From Tetrapisispora phaffii CBS 4417 (taxonomy: Eukaryota; Ascomycota; Saccharomycetes; Saccharomycetales; Saccharomycetaceae), in NCBI RefSeq assembly GCF_000236905.1, contig NC_016521.1, forward strand, positions 248,001 to 312,000: 64,000 nt of DNA, read 5' to 3'. Below, one piece after another: positions 4,500-33,005 of this stretch. The position numbers and the translations under genes were made by a program. The notes under the pieces are model-generated. The model saw nothing but the letters and a program-made list of their open reading frames with translations. It searched no databases and had not been told where the DNA came from. Position 1 is the first letter of the stretch; the number at the start of each line of letters is the position of its first letter.

Positions 4500-5360
4500 A
4501 TGGTTGATTATTTGGATGAATTGGTTGCTGAGATCAATCATTCGGTGACTTCGATTTCAACTTTGGATTTTAAAGCTCCAGGAATTTTCCAGAATGCAAT
4601 TAAACGTAGTAATTATGATGTCAATGATCTACTAGAAAGATTAGTTAAGGATGTTGACGACGAGAGACAGGCACCATTATTTACAATCGATAAAGTCCAT
4701 AAAATACCCACGAGAAAAGATGGTAAGAAAGGTATCTTGGACTATTTAACTGAGAGGGATGATAATTTGAAGAGAAACAGACACATCGGATTGCCAGAAC
4801 AACTTCCCGTGATTCATATACCAAACGATTATTATGAGAAGTTAGAAAATGAAAGAAACACCAAAAACCGTCGTTTGACAAGGAATGATATTTTATTAGA
4901 CGTCGACGCTGTCACTTCATCTATGAGTACGGCAAGTCCAACAGCAATCAATATACTGAATAAAAAGTTCAAGAACAACAGAATAGTAACGCAATTATTA
5001 TCTGCTTTGAAGAATGGTACTGTTATTTCTGATATAGGCAATGGTAACAGAAGGAAGACTATGTTTGTTGATGATTTCCCAACAGAAGCTATATTCGAAG
5101 TTTTGCAAGAAATCTTAACCATTTGGCCATCAGATGCCTATGAACAAGACTACATGAACCTATTTAGTAAATACAAAGACTTAATCGGTGAAATAGAAAC
5201 ATTACAGGATGAGATTAGGGTCCAAGATGGACAACTCACTGCACAAAGAAGAAGTGAAACTGAAGTTAGTTCAGGTCTATCTAACGTAGCCCAACGATTG
5301 ATTGCAAAAGAAAAAAGAGATATAGCGAAACTAGAAAGTCAAATAAATGATCTCACTTAA
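4500..5360 (+). CDS. SPC34: DASH/Dam1 complex subunit Spc34
   Basis: A 286-residue protein matching Spc34, a subunit of the DASH (Dam1) ring that couples kinetochores to microtubule plus ends. Recognisable segments are the N-terminal STLDFKAPGIFQNAI, the middle DGKKGILDYLTERDDNLKRN, and RRKTMFVDDFPTEAIFEVL before a C-terminal coiled coil (about residues 225-285). RRKT/S-type serine-threonine sites of this kind are Aurora/Ipl1 targets in the family; the visible RRKTMF fits. Length is close to the S. cerevisiae protein (295). Synteny with KAE1 and the next gene (YKR036C position) supports the call. Confidence 0.92.
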   Translation: MVDYLDELVAEINHSVTSISTLDFKAPGIFQNAIKRSNYDVNDLLERLVKDVDDERQAPLFTIDKVHKIPTRKDGKKGILDYLTERDDNLKRNRHIGLPEQLPVIHIPNDYYEKLENERNTKNRRLTRNDILLDVDAVTSSMSTASPTAINILNKKFKNNRIVTQLLSALKNGTVISDIGNGNRRKTMFVDDFPTEAIFEVLQEILTIWPSDAYEQDYMNLFSKYKDLIGEIETLQDEIRVQDGQLTAQRRSETEVSSGLSNVAQRLIAKEKRDIAKLESQINDLT

Positions 5361-6016
5361 AGAAACAAGCCAATCGAAAACAACAACACCATGAATCTTA
5401 TGTTGATGACATTATTACTTAAGATCAGTATGGTTATTCAGTATATCCTTAACTCCATTTCCCTTCAAAAAAGAAAGAGGATTTATGTGTAAAATCCCTT
5501 CAATTTATTTATATCTAGATATATAATGTATGTATTATTAATAAAATCCCATCCACTACTTAGATGAACAACAATTAATATCACACATTCTCACCATGTG
5601 CAATCAAACCATTCCAATCATTTGGTTGTTTAACCACTTCAATATACTATCTCTTCTTTCTTAAAGCACATCCACTTTTCTAAGCTCTTCTTTATAGGAC
5701 ACATTAAAGATTTTATCTCACAATAATGAAAAGATAAAAAGAATAATTATAAAAGTGATCTGAAACTGACTACAATTGAAAAGGTAGAGACGAGATGGTT
5801 GATTCATTCAGTCATAACTACAATATCGATTAGAATATAGGTAAATAATTGTTATTTGAGATTTGTTGACAATAATTTTCAATCCTTTTATTGGAATTAT
5901 CTATAAATAAAAGAGGTTATAATTTTTATTGTTGTCCATTGTAAATAGTTAGTGATATTATTACAGGGGAAGTTGAGGAATAGGAATAGAGAGAGATAAT
6001 TATACTCTATTGAATA
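5361..6016. other. Intergenic region, SPC34-MDV1/CAF4
   Basis: About 656 bp of AT-rich sequence holding the promoter of the WD40 gene. No gene or distinctive repeat is seen. Confidence 0.5.
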
Positions 6017-8176
6017 ATGTCAGGTAGTGATCATTTTGCGCAAGTGAAAGAGGCAATCTCTGCCACTACATCTATTCTGTTCAGTAATGAAGCAGTGGAA
6101 AATACTATATTATCATCACAAAGTCCCTATAAGAAATTGCTGCAAAAGGCAATAACAAACATGGACGGTGATTCCACAAATGCTATAAGTAACTTACAAT
6201 CATTTCAAGAAGAGTTGGATCAAGACTTCTCTCATCTCGAAGGGAAGGAAGCCTACTTAAGAAAGAGTGGTGATGATTATTTCACTAACTCATTCGTTGA
6301 CTCCAAGACTGGATTCAAAGTGATGACTTACTTAGATGATGAAATACTAAACGAGAATGTATCGAATGGTAAAACTAAATTACTACTCGATGGAACTCGG
6401 GAGAAAGAGAGTGATACCACGGATTCTCGCAACGAAGAACAACTTGAAGGTGGAAAAAAATCATCATTATTTCAAGGTTTTGAAGCATCGTTACCAGTTG
6501 TTGATAAAGTTATTGAAAAGAAGAAGGCTACACATGGATTGATTACTGAGGATAAAGATAAGGAAAATACCGGTGATTTTCTGTCACTTTTGGTAAGTGA
6601 CTTGCCTGATTTTGAAAATGAGAAACAATTTGATACAGATAGGATATCCAGATCATACTCATTGAAATATCTTAAAGGTTTATCTGAAAATATAATTAGA
6701 ACCATCAATTTGTTGTTGATTAAAAAAGACATGATAGATGACGAGGTGGAAGCTGCAGATAAGAAATTACAAGAGGCACTGAAGAAAAGTGAGAAAGCTA
6801 AGAAAAAGTTAAAAACAGCTGAAACAAATGAATTGCAACTAGATAATATTTTATCACTAGTGAAAGAGAGAATAAGTTTTATTGAAGAATACGATTTAGA
6901 AGTTGAAACATCTTGTAGTAAGGATTCTGAAAATGTCGAAGGAAAAACTGATGAAAAGACACCCGATAATACAGAAGTTCATACTAATACTAATCTGAAT
7001 ACAAGAGAGGATAACAGAGATGATGTTACTAGAAAGGAGGAAATCAAAAGTTCTAGAATCTCACATTCACTAAATGAAAAAATAAGTAGTAAACGTAAGA
7101 GTAAACAGAATAAACTACAATTATTCTTTGATGAAGAGTTGGGAAAGTCTAAAAAAGGGCGTACTACTCTTCAACATCACTACGACTCAGGAGATAATAT
7201 TCTAACTTTTAAAGGTGCTCATGCCAATGGGGTTTCTTGTTTAGATTTCGATGTACCATTTGGTACATTGAGCACTGCAGGTTACCTTGATCCTATTGTT
7301 AAAGTATGGGATCTGACTAGAAAAGTTCAGATGGCTACGTTGAATGGTCACATGGCTACTATCACTTGCATGCAATCAAGCCCTCATTATTCCATGTTAA
7401 TTACAGGCTCTAAAGATGCTACAATTAAACTGTGGAACCTTAAATTAGCATCCCAATTATACCTAGAAGAGAATGCAGATATTGGAAACAGCAACCAATC
7501 ATGTATCCACACATTCAGCAGTCATCTGGATGAATTAACAGCTATATCCTACGATACCATAAATTTGGTCAGTGGCTCTCAAGATAAGACCATAAGACAG
7601 TGGGATCTTTTGAGTGGCAAATGTGTTCAAACCATCGACTTGAGCTTTATCAAAAGCAGAAATAATGATTTCTATTCTAACCAACTGCTTGGAGAGAAGC
7701 CCCTAGTTGGAGCCATTCAGTGTTTTGATGCCGCATTGGCCACCGGCACCAAAGACGGTATTGTGCGTCTATGGGATCTTAGATCAGGAGTTCCAGTGAG
7801 AACATTGGAAGGACACACTGATGCCGTAACAGCGTTGAAATTTGATTCATCTAGCATCGTGACTGCCTCAAGTGACAAACAAGTTAGAATATGGGACCTG
7901 CGCACAGGTACTTTATCGAATGCATTTGCATTGGAGAAGCCTATAACGTCCTTAGATTTTGATTCAACGAGCATAATCTGTTCAACTAAAACGTCCAATT
8001 TCCAAGTGTTCAATAAGATTGAAAACAGACATTGGAATTGCGGCCCTACACACGACTCAGAACAATCCGGAACCTCCAATGAGCCATCAGAGTCGAATAT
8101 AATCACAATCAGAGTGAAAGACAATTATACTGTAGCAGGAAGTGATGACGGTACAATTAGTGCCTGGAGAGTCTAA
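6017..8176 (+). CDS. Mitochondrial fission adaptor, Mdv1/Caf4 family (WD40)
   Basis: A 719-residue protein with the Mdv1/Caf4 plan. The N-terminal extension that binds Fis1 covers about residues 1-215, a coiled coil lies at about 220-300, a charged linker runs to 390, and a seven-bladed WD40 propeller fills 391-719 (repeated WDL/WNL ends such as VKVWDLTRK, IKLWNLKLA, IRQWDLLSG, VRLWDLRSG, VRIWDLRTG). The family recruits the dynamin Dnm1 to the mitochondrial outer membrane through Fis1. S. cerevisiae has two ohnologues, MDV1 (YJL112W) and CAF4 (YKR036C). The left neighbour here is SPC34 (YKR037C) and the right neighbour CCT7 (YJL111W), so position does not decide between them. The length is closer to Mdv1 (714). 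If no second copy exists in the genome, this is the pre-duplicate equivalent. Confidence 0.9.
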   Translation: MSGSDHFAQVKEAISATTSILFSNEAVENTILSSQSPYKKLLQKAITNMDGDSTNAISNLQSFQEELDQDFSHLEGKEAYLRKSGDDYFTNSFVDSKTGFKVMTYLDDEILNENVSNGKTKLLLDGTREKESDTTDSRNEEQLEGGKKSSLFQGFEASLPVVDKVIEKKKATHGLITEDKDKENTGDFLSLLVSDLPDFENEKQFDTDRISRSYSLKYLKGLSENIIRTINLLLIKKDMIDDEVEAADKKLQEALKKSEKAKKKLKTAETNELQLDNILSLVKERISFIEEYDLEVETSCSKDSENVEGKTDEKTPDNTEVHTNTNLNTREDNRDDVTRKEEIKSSRISHSLNEKISSKRKSKQNKLQLFFDEELGKSKKGRTTLQHHYDSGDNILTFKGAHANGVSCLDFDVPFGTLSTAGYLDPIVKVWDLTRKVQMATLNGHMATITCMQSSPHYSMLITGSKDATIKLWNLKLASQLYLEENADIGNSNQSCIHTFSSHLDELTAISYDTINLVSGSQDKTIRQWDLLSGKCVQTIDLSFIKSRNNDFYSNQLLGEKPLVGAIQCFDAALATGTKDGIVRLWDLRSGVPVRTLEGHTDAVTALKFDSSSIVTASSDKQVRIWDLRTGTLSNAFALEKPITSLDFDSTSIICSTKTSNFQVFNKIENRHWNCGPTHDSEQSGTSNEPSESNIITIRVKDNYTVAGSDDGTISAWRV

Positions 8177-24583: not shown

Positions 24584-25921
24584 TTATTCTGGTAGTTTAC
24601 CGAATATTTTTTGACCACGTCTCATATCATTGAGTTTATGCTTCATATTAACTCTCACAAATATGGAAGCCATGTAGGCTACGGTAATCAATATTATGAA
24701 TGAAATGGATCTTAGGATAAATGAAACAAAATAACTACCAGTTTTAACCTCTCTGGTACTTTGATAATTTGGTTGGGCTTTGATCATTTTCCATCTTTTG
24801 TACTGATCCATTTCCATTGAGATCATTTGGCCATATTCGGCAGCTAAATATTTTTGAACTTCTTTAACATAATCAAATGATTCTTCACTAGATTCATCGT
24901 GATTATCCCAATGGAATTCATTTGTTTGCACATTTAATATGTCAACATTTTCGGTAGCTCTACCGTTACTAGCACCAATACCAATGAATCTTTGACCGGT
25001 TTGGGCATTCTTTGGAATTAAGACATCTTCGGTGGCATGGAATAACTCAATCCAAAAGTCACCTTCTTTAGCATACTGAATATCGACCTTTAAGAAACTG
25101 ATACTTTCCAAATATATAATACGTATCTTAGTAATATCGCCTTTCATGATTGAGTCATCCAATTGGATATGATGGTCATTTAACTTCAAGGAAGTCGAGG
25201 TGCTCGCATCACCATCACTGTCACGATCGTAATAATCCTTGAGTGGATTGACATTTAACATAGCATCCATAAATGGAATAGAAGCTCCTGAAGTTGAACG
25301 TTTACTATTCTGAAATGTATCAATAACTAATGCTAGACCCGGTAAATTTTTAGGGAAACCCATCATACTAGTATCATGTCCAACAACACCCCCTGAAGCA
25401 GAAATATACTCTTCTCTAGATTGTGGAGTTGAAAAATCTTTTCTAATAAATTCGTTCTCAGGAGTGATCAAAAATACCATACCTTCACCCATATTGGAAG
25501 AAGAAGTTCCTTTGTTGGAAGACTGTTTCCCGGTTAACTGGAACTCGACAATGACCTCAAAATCATTGATGACGTTGTCACCTATACCATTAGATAACAC
25601 AACACCGTGGGAATTACGAACACCAGCGCTAGTTAATCTGATATGTTTTTCGTTACGAATAAGTGCTTCACCACCAACATGCCAAAATCTATTTACTTTA
25701 TCTAAAAATGGGATTGATAAACTTGCATCTAAATTAAAAATTTTAGAGATATGAGAACCTTCATTGCTGAAACTGAAATGATCATTCACAACCTCAACAG
25801 AAGAACTGCCATAGTATGACTGAGTAATTATTTGAAATAATATGAATAAAAAGACAACAAACCCACCAAGTTTCAAATTGGGCGGGTTTGCAGTGCTGAT
25901 ATTATGTATGTTTTGATTCAT
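24584..25921 (-). CDS. UIP5: L-type lectin-like membrane protein Uip5
   Basis: A 445-residue protein resembling Uip5 (YKR044W, 443 residues), a Ulp1-interacting protein of the nuclear envelope/ER. A hydrophobic segment near the N-terminus (GGFVVFLFILFQIITQ) acts as signal or anchor. A legume-lectin-like luminal domain follows (HFSFSNEGSHISKIFNLDAS, FWHVGGEALIRNEKHIRLT, GEGMVFLITPENEF). A C-terminal transmembrane helix (SFILRSISFIILITVAYMAS) precedes a short basic tail, the plan of Emp46/Emp47-type lectins. The frame is open from 25972; the methionine at 25921 is preferred because the first 17 residues are not typical. It is convergent with the preceding gene, as in S. cerevisiae. Confidence 0.88.
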   Translation of the reverse strand: MNQNIHNISTANPPNLKLGGFVVFLFILFQIITQSYYGSSSVEVVNDHFSFSNEGSHISKIFNLDASLSIPFLDKVNRFWHVGGEALIRNEKHIRLTSAGVRNSHGVVLSNGIGDNVINDFEVIVEFQLTGKQSSNKGTSSSNMGEGMVFLITPENEFIRKDFSTPQSREEYISASGGVVGHDTSMMGFPKNLPGLALVIDTFQNSKRSTSGASIPFMDAMLNVNPLKDYYDRDSDGDASTSTSLKLNDHHIQLDDSIMKGDITKIRIIYLESISFLKVDIQYAKEGDFWIELFHATEDVLIPKNAQTGQRFIGIGASNGRATENVDILNVQTNEFHWDNHDESSEESFDYVKEVQKYLAAEYGQMISMEMDQYKRWKMIKAQPNYQSTREVKTGSYFVSFILRSISFIILITVAYMASIFVRVNMKHKLNDMRRGQKIFGKLPE

Positions 25922-25972
25922 TCCGATAATATATACTTTTATAAAACCAATTAGCAAATATGCAATTAACAC

Positions 25973-26471
25973 CGTACTTTGTAATTGTCACCAATTATGA
26001 GATGTATTTAATAAAATCAGCAAACATACACACATATATACATTGATCTTAATACTTAACTTTTTTTACAAACCTTGAACTTATATGTTGTTTCATTGAA
26101 ATTTTATGAACAAGTAATGCGTTACAGAGCGAGTTCATTATATCTTGAATTTATAGCGCCATAAAGAAATAAAATGTATACGATCAGATGAAAGTGACAT
26201 GTAAATGAGTGCTATTGGAATATGAACTATATCATCAAATCCGCATGCTTCGTTGATAGTACATTCCTTTAAATTATATATATTTGATAAATAAATCCAC
26301 CTTCGTTATTATCATTAAATTAAATTCCTTAAATTTGATTAATAAATTATATGAATAGAAGTAAGTATGACTTGACTCTGAATAACCGTCAAAATATTTG
26401 ATCCACCCATCAAAATAAATTTGACAATATAGGCTATCCTATGTTCCTATAATTTTATGCGTTTAACAGTC
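25973..26471. other. Intergenic region, UIP5-Gag
   Basis: About 500 bp, very AT-rich. I looked for an LTR or pol remnant on the 3' side of the Gag gene and saw none. Confidence 0.5.
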
Positions 26472-27209
26472 CTAATGTGATATGTTTCTATTTGAAATAG
26501 ATATTGGACAATTATTAAGCGAGTGTTTTCCCTTTCTGCACCTTAAACAAACACCTCGTTTCTTCAATTGAACTTTTTCCAATTTGGTTAACTTCGAAAG
26601 ACGCTGTGAATTTCTAAGTAGTCTTTTCGATCTCTTTCTACCAACCTTTGCATTAGCTTGGTTATTTTGAAGAGATCCGATTCTATCGCCTTGTGCTGTA
26701 TTTTGAATTTTTGGACTAGTTGGGACCCCTGTATTATTAGGAACGGGCGGCACAGTTGAGTTAACTGATGATCTTTGACTATCCGGTAGTTCAGCAACCA
26801 GTGATTTATCGATATCTTCAGTTTTAATTTTAGTTAAGTCACTTAATGGCAAGTCCTCCATACTTGCTGTCGATAACTGTCTAGTCCTATATTGTTTACC
26901 ACGCTCTTTCCTAAATCCTTCATCACTCAGTAAAGTTATTTCAGGTGCAAATTCGACTGATTCGTGTTCTTCAGTATTAGGTATGTTATTTTTATGCTTG
27001 GTCCTCCCAGATCTCCGTAATTTGATTGTCGATGCATTGTTATTCTGAACCCTTGAATCGTGGTTATTCACTCCATTATAACTATCATCCGTTGTTTTAT
27101 CAATGTTCCCACTCTCCAATTCCATCGTTTTATTTTCATTTTTTTTAGCTCTCTTCCTCGGGTTGCTGTATTCATTTTTTAGTCGTACTTGAAACCTGTT
27201 CTTTATCAT
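26472..27209 (-). CDS. Gag C-terminal part with CCHC zinc knuckle (Ty3/gypsy type)
   Basis: The second half of a Gag-like protein. It is a basic, Asn/Ser-rich region that ends in one zinc knuckle, CLRCRKGKHSLNNC, which fits CX2CX4HX4C exactly (about 20 residues before the stop). It overlaps the upstream Gag part by 38 bases in another frame. The frame is read most sensibly by a +1 change near the six-A run (27175-27180 on the plus strand) rather than by its own ATG at 27207-27209. No protease, reverse transcriptase or integrase frame follows. It may be a decayed element, a domesticated gag, or one gene with a sequencing error in a homopolymer. Confidence 0.7.
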   Translation of the reverse strand: MIKNRFQVRLKNEYSNPRKRAKKNENKTMELESGNIDKTTDDSYNGVNNHDSRVQNNNASTIKLRRSGRTKHKNNIPNTEEHESVEFAPEITLLSDEGFRKERGKQYRTRQLSTASMEDLPLSDLTKIKTEDIDKSLVAELPDSQRSSVNSTVPPVPNNTGVPTSPKIQNTAQGDRIGSLQNNQANAKVGRKRSKRLLRNSQRLSKLTKLEKVQLKKRGVCLRCRKGKHSLNNCPISISNRNISH

Positions 27210-27792
27210 GATTCATATGTTGATACTCTCGATATATGTCTGTATCTATTATGTAAGATTGATAAATTTGATTCTGCACTATAGTCTCTTGAGTTTTTGC
27301 TACATTCATTACTTCTGCCAAAAGTGATGGCTGTTCACTCAAATTAATCAGAGCTTCTTTTACTACTTTTTTCAAGCCATTGAGGTATCGACTTATCAAT
27401 GAAATCTCTGTGAAATATTCTCTCGACAAAAAGAAAATGATTCTATAGAATTCCGCATTATATTCTTCAACTGATCCACACTGATCCACATCATAATAAT
27501 TATCATAAAGTTGTTGCATTACTGGCTTTGTACTAATAAATTTTTTCAATTCCTCTAAAAACTCGTCAAAAGTCATTTCCTCTAATATACTTGCATTCTG
27601 TTCATGAAACATGATATACCAATCGAGCAACTCACCTTCAAAATTCTGAGCCACTTGGCAAATCCGTTTGTAATTAGTTAACCCAGGGTTATTATCGTTC
27701 CTAAGATTGACTTTAAAAATCATTGATCTCAAATCATAGAGATCATTGATTTTTAACAACTTTGGGGAAACATTTGGAGCGACAATGTACAT
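27172..27792 (-). CDS. Gag N-terminal/capsid part (Ty3/gypsy type)
   Basis: A 206-residue frame resembling the Retrotrans_gag capsid domain of Ty3/gypsy elements. The pattern is a Trp in GELLDWYIMF, then FDEFLEELKKFI, then CGSVEEYNAEFYRIIFFL, then ISRYLNGLKKVVKEAL, matching the family's W..F..F / SV.EY...F / F..GL spacing. The frame stops at 27172 just after a six-A run, and the next Gag part continues in the +1 frame. The open frame extends a little upstream of the ATG at 27792 without a better start. Such proteins package element RNA; a lone gag suggests either a relic or a host-recruited gene. Confidence 0.75.
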   Translation of the reverse strand: MYIVAPNVSPKLLKINDLYDLRSMIFKVNLRNDNNPGLTNYKRICQVAQNFEGELLDWYIMFHEQNASILEEMTFDEFLEELKKFISTKPVMQQLYDNYYDVDQCGSVEEYNAEFYRIIFFLSREYFTEISLISRYLNGLKKVVKEALINLSEQPSLLAEVMNVAKTQETIVQNQIYQSYIIDTDIYREYQHMNHDKEQVSSTTKK

Positions 27793-28636
27793 ATCGACAT
27801 TATATTCAGTTGACCGTGTATACTTATGTAGCTCTTCTATTACTAACGTAAATCAACTCTTATGAAAAGGAAGTATCTCTTGATTACGTTACAATAAAAA
27901 AACTCTATTCAAAAAAGCAATTGGTTCTTTTTAAGGCCGATCATAAGTAGTTAACTTATGAACCAAACACAACAACTCGAGTCATAACCTATAAATGAAA
28001 CTCTATACATATATATACAACTTTAGATCATTGATATAAACTCTGATCTGAATCATTTTTCGATGAGTGAAAATATCCATTTCCAATTCGATCTTATGTT
28101 GATGTAACAAAACATTTTCGAATGTTAGTCTCCCATTGTCAACGCTTAAAGTAAAAATTTAAAGAGCGGCGCCTATTATTTCTTTACAGACCCTTTAAAT
28201 TGTAGTTCAATATACAGTTGCTATTAGAGATTGATAGCTTATAGTGACGAGGCTCAGCATTGACGATATACTTATTGCTAAAGACCAGTTCCTAAAAGTA
28301 AGATGAACTGAAGCTCGAGGACGGCGGATCATGTTATTATACCATTCAGTTAAGAAACGTGATATAGAAAAAGAGTAGAATAATGTAAGGTATATGAGTT
28401 CTGACATGCCGTCATTATATAGTAGTATATATAGTTTTATGTAACAGAAGATCGATCACAGTGCACTCGATGTTTCATACCAAGAGTCCTAATGCCAGGA
28501 ACTCGGAGAATAATAACCAGAGGTTGAAGTAGATCTGATCTACTATTTGTAAAATCAAATTACAATAACTAATAGCGATTGAAGACCTAGAATGTTGTGC
28601 TGAAGAGATGTTTTCATTTTTTAATGTTTCAAATCG
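27793..28636. other. Non-coding stretch between Gag and the LTR repeat array
   Basis: About 840 bp with no gene. A small open frame at 28207-28407 (minus) has no recognisable content. It might contain decayed element sequence, but I see no clear LTR ends. Confidence 0.4.
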
Positions 28637-29344
28637 AATGCTATTAGACTATATATTCAGATTAATATCTTTCGTTTCTTGGGCCTAGATCTACGAATGC
28701 TTCTTCCATTGATTATCGGCGTTCATATATACATGTTATTTCAATCTAGCGTTCTATCCAACCAGAGTGATGTCGTGGAATTGTAGACATATAGCAGATT
28801 GATGATTCTGTGGTGCTATATATGCATTAGAATTTGTGTCATTATATTCTTGTAGACGTCTGTACTTTCAGCTTTGTAACGATAATTTCCTAAAGAGGCT
28901 ATTCTATCATGATACAGTCAGCCATACGTCCAGCGCCAGTTGCAACACTTTGGCCATACTGCTGCTACGAACTTAATCACTCGCTTGAGGAAATTGCCAT
29001 ATAAAGTAGTGTGGAGAAACAAGCTTATGTTGGTTAGAACCAACGTCTAAGTTAGTGTCGTTAGTCACTTTAGTTGCTTTCGAGTAGTCCATCTTCGTAA
29101 TAGTTAAATGATCGATTGGTCTTTTATCAGTATATTTAAACAATTCTATATAGACTTAGATTTCCTCTTAGTATATAAGTTATCTCATACTTGAGTCAAC
29201 ACAGTACGTGTTCAGTCATTCTCCTAAGATCTTTAGTGCTGTATTGTACATCTGTGTTTATCACATAGCCATTTACGTTGTAGTGAAAAGTTTTCATCTA
29301 TCATTTGGAAGAGGTTCTAGAACCTCCTATCCTATTGCTCAACA
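28637..29344 (+). repeat. Diverged repeat unit A (about 700 bp), contains an LTR
   Basis: This unit is repeated, diverged, at about 29376-30050. Shared landmarks are GATTATCGG/GATTACCGG, TTCATATATACATG-like text, GTGGAGAAACAAGCTTA, TCTAAGTTAGTGTC and AAGATCTTTAGTGCTGTATTG. It may be the 3' end of an element plus its LTR: a purine-rich GTGGAGAAACAAG lies just before the LTR start. Confidence 0.6.
29028..29344 (+). mobile_element. Solo LTR (Ty-type), copy A
   Basis: A 317-bp segment beginning TGTTGG and ending CTCAACA, so it has the 5-base TGTTG/CAACA terminal inverted repeat seen in yeast Ty LTRs. A second, diverged copy starts at 29739. No five-base target duplication is visible. It lies upstream of a tRNA gene, where Ty1 and Ty3 are known to insert. 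The alternative is that the whole 700-bp unit is a longer LTR. Confidence 0.6.
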
Positions 29345-29375
29345 GATGAATTCATTGCTTTAATATATTAATAGT

Positions 29376-30050
29376 TGTTAGATTATATACTATATAATTA
29401 GATTAATCTCTCTAGTCTCTTGGACCTGGATCAATGAATTATTTAGCTATTGATTACCGGAGTTTATATATACATCATATTTCAATCTACCGTTCTGTCC
29501 AACTCGACGACGTCGTCTCGTTGGACACGTACGGCAGGCTGATGGTTCTACAGTACTATTTATGCATTAGAAATTCTGCTATTTCATTCTCGTGAGGACT
29601 TATTGTTTCAGTTTTACAACATTAGTCTCGTAAAGAGGTAGTATCTGGTATCGTATAGTCACTTATACGACCAGTATCATTTCCAACAAAGCTTAATTCT
29701 CCACATATTTTGCTTTCAATTGTGGAGAAACAAGCTTATGTTGGGTAGTTCCAACATCTAAGTTAGTGTCATTAGCCACTTCAGTTGCTCTAGTATAGTC
29801 CATCTTCTTTATAGTTAAATAATCGATTGGTCCTTTATTAGTGTATTTAAACTATTCTATATAGAGTTAGAAGCCCTCCTTATATATGAGTTGAACTGAC
29901 AGTTGAATGAACACGTACACATGTTCATTCATCCTCCTAAGATCTTTAGTGCTGTATTGTACATCTGTTGTTTATCGCGTAGCCATTTACATTGTAGTGA
30001 GAAATTTTCACCTACCACTTGGAAGATTGTTCTAGACCTTCTTTCCATTA
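29376..30050 (+). repeat. Diverged repeat unit B, second copy of the LTR-bearing unit
   Basis: It aligns along its length with unit A (28637-29344) with many substitutions and small indels. It begins TGTTAG and its end merges into the sequence before the tRNA-Asp gene. The last part (from 29916) is duplicated again after the assembly gap. Confidence 0.6.
29739..30050 (+). mobile_element. Degenerate LTR, copy B
   Basis: It starts TGTTGGG and follows the copy A LTR (TCTAAGTTAGTGTC, AAGATCTTTAGTGCTGTATTGTACATCTG), but the CAACA end is lost, so the right boundary is approximate. It is about 170 bp upstream of tRNA-Asp. Confidence 0.5.
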
Positions 30051-30305
30051 GTAAGTGATCTATTAGTTCTGGACTCAAAGTGTCATAAACTCTTAGTTCT
30101 GTCACATACACTACAATAATTCTGACATCAATTGTTTTGAGCATATGAATTTCAATTACTGTAAATAAATTTGTTCTGTTCAGTTCAGATAATTTGCCCA
30201 ACGTTATAAATATTAATATCCGGGATAGTTTAATGGTTAGAATCCGCGCTTGTCGCGTGCGGGATCGGGGTTCAATTCCCCGTTCCGGAGATTTAATTTT
30301 TACTT
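29916..30305 (+). repeat. Direct duplication, left copy (LTR tail + tRNA-Asp)
   Basis: This block recurs at 30326-30715 with a constant offset of 410 bp. The portion from 30021 to 30305 is identical to 30431-30715 as read; the portion before it differs at several positions. It ends directly at the run of Ns. Confidence 0.9.
30219..30290 (+). tRNA. tRNA-Asp (GTC), duplicated copy 1
   Basis: Identical in its 72 bases to the tRNA at 2290-2361: acceptor TCCGGGA, anticodon GTC and T-arm GGGGTTCAATTCCCC, no intron. It is embedded in a 390-bp direct duplication, so it could be a real second copy or an assembly duplicate of the copy at 30629. Confidence 0.9.
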
Positions 30306-30325
30306 NNNNNNNNNNNNNNNNNNNN
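30306..30325. other. Assembly gap (20 Ns)
   Basis: Twenty N characters separate two copies of the same 390-bp block. The true length is unknown. Repeat-induced scaffolding is likely. Confidence 0.98.
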
Positions 30326-30715
30326 GTACGTGTTCCGTTCATTCTCCTGAGATCTTTTAGCGCTGTATTGTACATCTGTGTTTATCACGTAGCCATTTAC
30401 ATTGTAGTGAAAAGTTTTCACCTATCATCTGGAAGATTGTTCTAGACCTTCTTTCCATTAGTAAGTGATCTATTAGTTCTGGACTCAAAGTGTCATAAAC
30501 TCTTAGTTCTGTCACATACACTACAATAATTCTGACATCAATTGTTTTGAGCATATGAATTTCAATTACTGTAAATAAATTTGTTCTGTTCAGTTCAGAT
30601 AATTTGCCCAACGTTATAAATATTAATATCCGGGATAGTTTAATGGTTAGAATCCGCGCTTGTCGCGTGCGGGATCGGGGTTCAATTCCCCGTTCCGGAG
30701 ATTTAATTTTTACTT
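30326..30715 (+). repeat. Direct duplication, right copy (LTR tail + tRNA-Asp)
   Basis: The second copy of the block at 29916-30305. Its first 105 bases are closer in places to LTR copy A (TGTTTATCAC, GAAAAGTTTTCA) than to the left copy, and the rest is identical to the left copy. Confidence 0.9.
30629..30700 (+). tRNA. tRNA-Asp (GTC), duplicated copy 2
   Basis: The same 72-base cloverleaf as the other two Asp tRNAs here, with identical 5' flank to copy 1 (including CCCAACGTTATAAATATTAATA). After the tRNA, ATTTAATTTTTACTTTTTGG includes T-runs suitable for RNA polymerase III termination. Confidence 0.95.
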
Positions 30716-30850
30716 TTTGGTTTCCTGATGTATATTGTGAAAACAAGATACCACACAAGGTATTTACCAATACATACATGCATACATAAAAATAGGGTCT
30801 TATGATTTGTTGGTTAATAATGAATATTTGCTATTGTCTAATGTACTTAA

Positions 30851-32083
30851 CTATATGATTTCTTTTATGCTGTTTTGTGTGGCGGTGTCACTTTCCCGGA
30901 GCTTTATCTCGAGGTCACCGCATTTCTTATCCAATTGATCTATATGCTTCTTATAAAGATGTTTCACTGATTCAAGTTCATTTATTTTGGATTTCAATCT
31001 AATAATCTCTTCTTCATACTGGAGTACTGTCCTCAAATGAAGGAGACTATCTGGTTTTCCCGACGTGTCCATAAGAAGTGTGGTATTGTTGGATACAACA
31101 GTATCATCTGATGTTAGTTTGGGGTTTGGTACCAGCTTAGTTGGGTGGTTCAATATGTAATCAGCTTCAGATTGTGGTCTTGAGTCACCATACAACGAGG
31201 TGTTGCTTGTGCTCTTCTCAACGTCTCGTATCAATGACTGTAGACCAGGCAGCTTATTAGCAGTATTACGATGATTATGATGATTATGTTGGTTATAATA
31301 CTCTGGTTTTTTCTTTTGATTATGTTGGTGCGCACTTGGAAGCAAATGTATTTTGGTGTCTTGTTTATTTAATTGCGGTACCGTCAAGTTATAATGAGAC
31401 TCATCTGTCGATGAATTTTCAGAAGAGTTAAGGTCGCTAACAGTCCCTGAATCATAACTATTGTTCCGACTATGATTCTCCGATGGCGTCCCAAATTCTG
31501 TCCTGCCAGAACTTGGTCTAGGTAGCTTTGGCTTTAATTTTGGTTTTATACTTTCCATCTGCATAAGATTCAATATTCTCAAGTCGTGTGCCGTCGTTGG
31601 GTTCTTAATTTTATTGTTCTCACGACTACTACTATCGAGTGAAATGGATGCATTTTTCCTCTTTTTGTTGCCATCGCCGGGAGTACCCGTACCACACACC
31701 GAACTATCAGAATCATCTTTGACATCTGCTTTGGATGATCTCGCATTAGATGGTATCCTATTTCTCTTCAATATCACATCAGTCTTTAGTGAAACTGGTC
31801 GTGGTTTCCCGTGTAATTTCAAAAATAACCCACATGCATTACATAATATTGATCCAAATTCATCTCTTCTCCACAATGGCGTCTTAGAGGTAAGACAATT
31901 ATTACAAACCGGTTTATCCAAATCTTCGTAAGACGATGAATGTGGCATACTGCCACTATCAGAAATAAACTTCAAATTACTATTATCTGAACTTTGCAAT
32001 ACAACCTCCTCTCGGGTTTCACTACTGACCTTCATGGTTCGATGACCCTCTTGTGTTTCCCGATATAACGATTTCTCCCTCAC
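30851..32083 (-). CDS. GATA-type zinc-finger repressor, Dal80/Gzf3 family
   Basis: A 410-residue transcription factor. The single GATA finger has Cys60, Cys63, Cys81 and Cys84 in [18 protein letters not shown]...[16 protein letters not shown], the fungal CX2CX17CX2C type. A C-terminal coiled coil (about residues 355-405: [16 protein letters not shown]) gives the leucine-zipper dimerisation region that separates Dal80/Gzf3 from activators Gln3/Gat1. These proteins repress nitrogen-catabolite genes at GATAAG sites. The length lies between Dal80 (269) and Gzf3 (551), so I leave the symbol open. A second start at Met17 (32035) is possible. Four overlapping GATAAG sites upstream suggest regulation by GATA factors, including itself. 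Confidence 0.88.
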
Positions 32084-33005
32084 ACACAGTAAAAATCTTC
32101 CAAGTCTCTCAACTCTACTTCAGATTATCCTTATATATGCCGCTATCCTATCAGTACAGCAATAGATCAAATCCATCATTGCAACCATTTCCTTAACGAA
32201 TGATAAAGAGAAATGCATATTCTGTTATCTTGATCTCTAACTCTCTTATCTTTTCTTATCTTATCTTATCATAATTTCTGTCATCGCGGAATAATGTGCG
32301 CCCATCGTGACGGTAAGTAACAGATGACAGTAAAGTCTATATGTTATATATATATACATTAAAATACGCTGGATGGTATCTTGTGACTTTCGCAGTAAGT
32401 TGTTGATTGAATATGGAATATATGATGTTGTTGCATGTGGACTTGCTTGTTCTCTTGATTGGTACTCAATAGCTTTTTCTGTTATTGCTTATTTATTATC
32501 TGAATGGATTAATCAAGGCAAGTGATTAAAAGCAAAATAATACTGTACCAATTATAAATCTCGATGATTAAAAGGATAACAATGTTGATATAACTCTGAT
32601 CTATTCTTGAGCACCCTTCGAGTAAGACAACAGTCGGTATATATTCTCAAGATACTTTCCCTACCCGGATTTACATTTTGATATACTAAAAATATAATCA
32701 CTTCTCACGAAGAAACTGCCCATTTACAATTAAACATTAAATTAAATAGTAACTTTGATATTTAAACAACCAGAATACATCATCAGATAGTTCAATACTT
32801 GTCCCAACGATTAGGTAATATCGAGAACAACGTAGGTTAGCGTATCCAATCCTTAACTAGAGGGAGTAAACTCAGCTTCAACTTTTTATTTTTTGATACT
32901 TAATTTTGCGTGGCTTTCCTCCAAGGGTTTCTTTGGAATATAAGTGCAAGTGTGGGGGATATAATAGAAGCTCTTACTCAATCAACACCATTAGTGTTAT
33001 AAATA
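32084..33005. other. Divergent promoter region, GATA factor / SET3-like
   Basis: About 920 bp shared by two divergent genes. It contains the GATAAG cluster (listed separately) close to the GATA gene. No RNA gene is seen. Confidence 0.5.
32245..32270 (-). promoter_or_regulatory. Cluster of four GATAAG sites
   Basis: CTTATC at 32245-32250, 32255-32260, 32260-32265 and 32265-32270 reads as GATAAG on the strand of the GATA-factor gene, about 160-190 bp upstream of its start. The last three cores are packed at 5-bp steps. Dal80 and Gzf3 promoters are known to be GATA-controlled. Confidence 0.65.

Follow-up and report, generated by a model that had tools for sequence, protein, structure and literature searches.

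In the stretch of Tetrapisispora phaffii CBS 4417 DNA analyzed here (the window: 64,000 nt, contig 2 positions 248001-312000, in a genome of 12.1 Mb and 17 contigs), a gag gene of Ty3 type was found on the minus strand, between UIP5 and a GATA-factor gene. It is divided between two overlapping open reading frames (ORFs), ORF1 carrying the capsid part and ORF2 a linker and a zinc knuckle (Table 1). We favor, with a confidence somewhat above even, the reading that this gene, a Ty3-lineage Gag present in single copy, would have outlived its element and been kept by selection, and that the break of its frame at a run of six A (A6) should be a one-base insertion or deletion (indel) or a Roche-454 homopolymer miscall. 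The gene is in this sense no more than a candidate for a domesticated gag. A first-pass annotation of this DNA had described a Ty3/gypsy gene consisting of gag alone and divided between two frames where six A follow one another (T-run on the plus strand); the positions of both frames and of the run, as well as their +1 relation, were reproduced.

ORF1 matched two Pfam families above their cut-offs, Ty3_capsid (PF19259; E = 1.2e-19, 71 bits, cut-off 29.1) and Retrotrans_gag (PF03732; E = 5.9e-7, 30.1 bits, cut-off 24.1). Its open frame extends to 27852, with no ATG before the one at 27792. In ORF2, a polar linker of about 190 residues is followed by a basic stretch and then by a CX2CX4HX4C knuckle; residues 13-200 comprise 63 S/T/N/Q, 33 K/R, 25 D/E and 37 I/L/M/V/F/W/Y. 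The knuckle was recognized by direct reading, the Pfam family zf-CCHC_5 being sub-threshold at this place (15.9 bits for a cut-off of 27). A capsid domain with a CCHC knuckle behind it is what characterizes a Gag of the Ty3/Metaviridae type, and the identification made by the first-pass annotation is in agreement with these results. The pol gene after gag and the flanking pair of long terminal repeats (LTRs) of a complete Ty3-type retrotransposon were not recognized. The structure model of ORF1 spoke neither for nor against a capsid, since AlphaFold2, run on the single sequence, gave an all-helical model of low confidence (predicted local distance difference test 51.3) and none of its 31 Foldseek matches at E<=10 reached E<=0.001. 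Searched alone against the PDB sequences, ORF1 gave one chance-like match (E = 0.04); a profile that combined ORF1 with the Ty3 gag of contig 1 matched 6r22, a Ty3 Gag, at E = 4.7e-34, a result taken as driven largely by the second sequence. In NCBIfam, the single match of ORF1 (TIGR04255; 19 bits, E = 0.00096) was below the cut-off of 30 and ORF2 had none. Close to its start, ORF1 also contains an inverted repeat (27713-27756; 44 bp, imperfect at 82%).

The chance of an open frame of such length, computed from base composition alone, was about 1e-8 for each of the two parts, and the remaining five frames of each contain 6 to 40 stops. For a codon score, 27 of the 39 listed ORFs of the window served as the training set, the two gag frames and ten presumed shadow or repeat ORFs having been dropped. 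ORF1 and ORF2 scored 0.13 and 0.20 nats per codon, respectively, and the 27 host ORFs used for training 0.10-0.31. In segments of 120 nt, the ORF1 frame scored best throughout ORF1 (one segment was slightly negative, -0.6), and 3' of the junction the ORF2 frame was best down to about 26580, where the score drops to -0.1; in the last segment, centered on 26520 and running beyond the stop, the ORF2 frame scored -6.4 and another frame was higher at -3.0. The coding signal changes frame at the junction, and the earlier description of both parts as long and otherwise open was thus borne out. A score restricted to synonymous codons gave 0.09 for ORF1 and 0.13 for ORF2, for a range of -0.19 to 0.26 (median 0.16) among the 27 host ORFs left out singly; the contig 1 Ty3 element fell below the gag (-0.07 and -0.13) and Ty1-type ORFs near ORF1 (about 0.06).

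Because the ORF2 frame is closed above 27212 and ORF1 ends at 27172, the change of frame is confined to 44 nt. The likeliest event in this interval is a one-base length change at A6, by indel or by 454 homopolymer miscall. The T. phaffii genome is assigned to Gordon et al. 2011 (12.1 Mb, 16 chromosomes; PMC5499181), whose genome set was sequenced by Roche-454 according to PMC3507789; the main text of the latter does not contain the word "phaffii", and the 454 origin is deduced from membership of that set. For the sister species T. blattae, the same source reports a frameshift correction in which 398 bases were inserted and 48 deleted, 418 genes being affected for 5600 predicted. As described there, the detection of frame errors relied on similarity to reference genes, and a gag without close relatives would therefore probably be left uncorrected. 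An actual indel in one strain and a 454 miscall are indistinguishable on present evidence. The break shows that a homopolymer-prone technology can hide genes without relatives in a reference genome, because frame errors were sought by similarity to known genes.

The first-pass annotation had also listed a programmed +1 shift among its options. Placed within gag, at or near AAA_UGA_A, such a shift would produce a capsid-only and a capsid-linker-knuckle protein from one messenger RNA. It would account for two open, coding-like frames that switch within the junction interval, and its direction would be that of Ty1, Ty3, antizyme, EST3 and ABP140; moreover, a stop codon in the A site can promote +1 shifting, as described for GCG_UGA_C of antizyme (PMC5009743). 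Five reported yeast +1 heptamers were compared with the ORF1/ORF2 overlap: CUU_AGG_C, CUU_AGU_U, GCG_AGU_U and GCG_UGA_C, from S. cerevisiae, and the variant CUU_CGG_C, from three Kazachstania species, as far as given in PMC12661321 and PMC12719033. None of the 14 heptamers of the overlap equals any of them. One, TCA_AGT_A, might act in a similar way, as it carries the slow A-site codon AGU found in Ty3 and EST3, with a different following base. The window gag thus resembles the yeast +1 genes OAZ1, EST3, ABP140 and YFS1 in its two frames joined in +1, and antizyme in the UGA, but the sites that these genes are described to use (CUU_AGG_C, CUU_AGU_U or GCG_UGA_C) are absent from its overlap. 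The Lys-tRNA on AAA should re-pair with AAU only imperfectly, and no RNA structure stood out from shuffled sequences in three stretches around the junction (z = -0.77, -0.28 and +1.78). Furthermore, the same genome uses the classical sites: the T. phaffii antizyme retains GCG_TGA_C (L023, contig 3, around 383378-383599), and the Ty3 family has GCG_AGT_T where its gag ends, with pol following in +1, whereas the window gag breaks inside gag. A programmed shift is accordingly very unlikely and was given up; from the options first listed we keep the retained, possibly domesticated gag with an indel or a miscall. The least probable of the readings considered is a host-kept Ty3-type gag decoded at AAA_UGA_A as a non-reported +1 site, by which a set ratio of capsid-only to full protein would be obtained, the short form poisoning Ty assembly.

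Two separate proteins could also arise without any frame change if, after fission of an old gag, ORF2 were translated alone, starting either at position 27209 or, further downstream, at MELES. ORF2 has indeed its own ATG at 27209, within the overlap, and its form in the protein database is a protein of 217 residues beginning with MELES. Against this, internal initiation would have to bypass both the ORF1 ATG and an upstream ORF (uORF), and database gene models may be automatic; we judge this account as improbable as the programmed shift. Slightly less credible still is the splicing of the two frames through a non-consensus intron of 61 nt, from GTATCA (27226) to ACAG (27166) with a branch site GACTAAA (27184). 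Its length fits a single frame and the branch-like site and the AG stand at suitable positions, but the 5' site and the branch site both deviate from the yeast consensus GTATGT and TACTAAC. Nine of 16 donor-like sites were tried with one acceptor and two of the nine (61 and 454 nt) fit the frame, so that the agreement is plausibly due to chance.

Regarding copy number, the DNA of 26400-27900 had no second match at E<=10 in the genome (the search skips very common words), and the ORF1 protein no other match at the same threshold. ORF2 matched one further place, a knuckle on contig 8 (30 codons, E = 0.018). Capsid-like and knuckle-like pieces are present at this place (L018, around 5100-5660), where every one of the three forward frames is interrupted by 8-10 stops over 186 codons; at the protein level, no kin of the window gag other than this shattered relic was found. 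In the relic (around 5100-6300), the gag pieces are followed by a protease-like piece, read from the translation, and a Ty1-type LTR copy (87%) lies at 6414-6822.

Besides the window gag, a Ty3_capsid search of the genome found three places, of which two lie on contig 1 and one on contig 15. The Ty3 elements of contigs 1 and 15, 93% identical to each other over 2.1 kb, belong to a different family, and the contig 1 copy has a pol ORF with Ty3 peptidase and reverse transcriptase (RT). Their gags share with the window gag the Ty3_capsid domain and a CCHC knuckle of the same spacing. In contrast, the contig 1 gag is only 22% identical to ORF1 by pairwise alignment, and its EYN-like capsid motif is separated from the knuckle by 113 codons (108 in the contig 8 relic, or 324 nt) versus about 307 in the window gag (922 nt across the frame change). 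The window gag linker is about 195-200 residues longer than in the contig 1 copy and the contig 8 relic; the additional part may have been gained here or lost elsewhere. In the contig 1 (L019, C1:958936-961348) and contig 15 (L020) Ty3 copies, the gag frame opens directly after a stop, at the same point, and the contig 15 copy has two consecutive stops just before it. GCG_AGT_T is present twice in the gag-pol overlap of this family, and a further partial gag, inverted, lies on contig 1 at 961453-961761.

No pol remnant was recognized in the 550 bp leading to UIP5 or in 808 bp upstream, the best of 10 matches being at chance level (E = 0.075); the queries for the downstream 550 bp were the contig 1 pol ORF, the frames of the contig 8 relic and those of a further contig 1 stretch. 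In a self-comparison of 25900-31000, no repeat pair flanks gag and the nearest dispersed-repeat match begins at 28598; a lone LTR of the gag's own family could be missed because the sequence of that LTR is not known. The absence of a following pol and of an LTR on the 3' side, reported in the first-pass annotation, is consistent with these searches. The repeats of the upstream cluster are probably foreign to the gag's own element, because they are largely of Ty1/copia type. Within it, 29721-30127 is 97.5-99.5% identical to repeats beside the RT loci L008-L011 and 87-95% to others, and the RT of L010, the one tested among the four, is of RVT_2 type; 28598-28947 and 29336-29688 also match sequence next to the Ty3 pol piece of contig 15 (72% and 90%, respectively) and may therefore be of either family. 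Six TGG-type starts, possible priming sites, were noted upstream of gag.

The neutral decay of both parts was simulated with either 0.1 or 0.05 indels per substitution. The probability of at most one lesion was 0.44-0.63 at 1% divergence, 0.10-0.26 at 2%, 0.03-0.10 at 3% and 0.001-0.011 at 5%; because it falls so fast, a neutral copy would need to be young. This could be the case if the gag were a plain relic, that is a recently arrived or truncated neutral fragment which has just taken its first frameshift and has no host function. The single lesion is expected so early in decay, no orthologue was found in the protein database, and a hot spot of tRNA-Asp genes and LTRs lies about 0.8-2.9 kb upstream of ORF1. 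This alternative deserves serious attention, but we hold it rather unlikely: the genome contains no recognized donor copy or DNA-level relative, neither pol remnant nor flanking repeat pair was recognized, and the only kin found, on contig 8, is shattered. Selection would be the simplest account of the open gag, because its own pol and flanking repeat pair are unrecognizable while gag itself is nearly perfectly open. The youth required of a neutral copy, together with the failure to find a source copy, a pol remnant or a repeat pair, favors retention by selection without proving it.

Several observations weigh against a retained gag broken by a simple length change. A recent foreign gag fragment would look the same. 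The protein-database searches with ORF1 and ORF2 returned the window's own protein only (1 of 73 and 1 of 243 candidates), although these searches open with a word-based look that distant relatives can escape; UIP5, used as control in the same database, gave 41 proteins including the window's own, that of Vanderwaltozyma polyspora being 68% identical. The ORF1 ATG is preceded at 8 nt by an ATG in another frame; this upstream ATG, whose context we take to be the better of the two under yeast start-site rules, counts against efficient expression. Concerning the coding signal, pieces of 100 codons scored up to 0.27 and 0.30 in the two end stretches which served as intergenic controls and which may hold unlisted genes, and on synonymous codons a wrong frame of ORF1 outscored the right one (0.16 versus 0.09), for which reason that score is given little weight. 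As for the break, a +1 change belongs to the rarer deletion class, 48 of the 446 bases corrected in T. blattae according to PMC3507789, so that a miscall is not the default explanation and its prior per gene is here estimated to lie closer to one per cent than to seven. In addition, the 27 host ORFs that were chosen contain 65 runs of at least six, every one of them within an open frame; these ORFs may have been corrected previously, and the choice of long ORFs hides broken ones.

According to the retained-gag reading, a Gag with capsid, unusually long polar linker and zinc knuckle would have survived the loss of the rest of a Ty3-lineage element, and selection would have kept it almost fully open. 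A one-base length change at A6, as a recent mutation in the sequenced strain or as a 454 homopolymer miscall, would then split the frame. From the assembled sequence, ORF1 should by conventional translation give only the capsid part of 206 residues, and the unbroken gene, if it exists, is predicted to encode a Gag with a capsid, a long flexible linker and a nucleic-acid-binding knuckle. Host-retained Ty3/gypsy gags are represented by PEG10/RTL, the mammalian sushi/Ty3 gags, and PEG10 likewise joins two frames. In PEG10, which is conserved across mammals, the shift is -1 and lies between the gag part and the pol part; neither feature has a counterpart shown for the window gag. A parallel is offered by DRT2, a restriction factor of S. 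cerevisiae described as a domesticated Ty1' gag (PMC10951436): as in the window, a gag relic occupies a single locus next to tRNA genes and LTRs with its frame open, and pol is gone in the commonest DRT2 structure. The window gag differs from DRT2 in being Ty3-type, with linker and knuckle, frame-broken as assembled, and known here from sequence alone. By analogy with DRT2 and p22, it may be conjectured that the intact product acts against Ty elements as a Gag-like nucleic-acid-binding or capsid-interfering protein, most likely by disturbing the assembly of Ty particles. If selection has kept it, the gene would be to the Ty3 lineage, in a budding yeast, what DRT2 is to Ty1', suggesting that the capture of gag against transposons recurs across element classes. 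The openly licensed literature searched yielded no description of a gag at this position, nor of any domesticated Ty3 gag from Tetrapisispora.

Table 1. Positions in the window of the gag parts, their junction and the neighboring features.
Feature	Position	Strand	Remarks
ORF1, Ty3-type capsid	27172-27792	minus	206 codons; TGA directly after the A6 run
ORF2	26472-27209	minus	245 codons; +1 relative to ORF1; stop-to-stop 26472-27212
Zinc knuckle CLRCRKGKHSLNNC, CX2CX4HX4C	26508-26549	minus	direct reading; in other frame than capsid
Frame-change interval	27172-27215	minus	44 nt; A6 the only homopolymer of at least 4
A6 run	27175-27180	minus	context ACT AAA AAA TGA A
Upstream ATG, out of frame	27800 (feature 27793-27800)	minus	opens a 15-codon uORF overlapping the ORF1 start
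Spacer, gag stop to UIP5 start	25922-26471		550 bp; no pol remnant recognized
UIP5	24584-25921		named through homologues
LTR-like repeat cluster beside two tRNA-Asp genes	28598-30537		largely Ty1/copia-type family
GATA-factor gene	30851-32119

The gag is separated from the GATA-factor gene by the two tRNA-Asp genes and the LTR-like repeats. In this region, a unit of about 389 bp, made of an LTR-like end and a tRNA-Asp gene, occurs in tandem at 29919-30305 and 30328-30715 with 96% identity. A gap of 20 N, starting at 30306, lies between the two units, and the tandem is possibly an assembly artefact.
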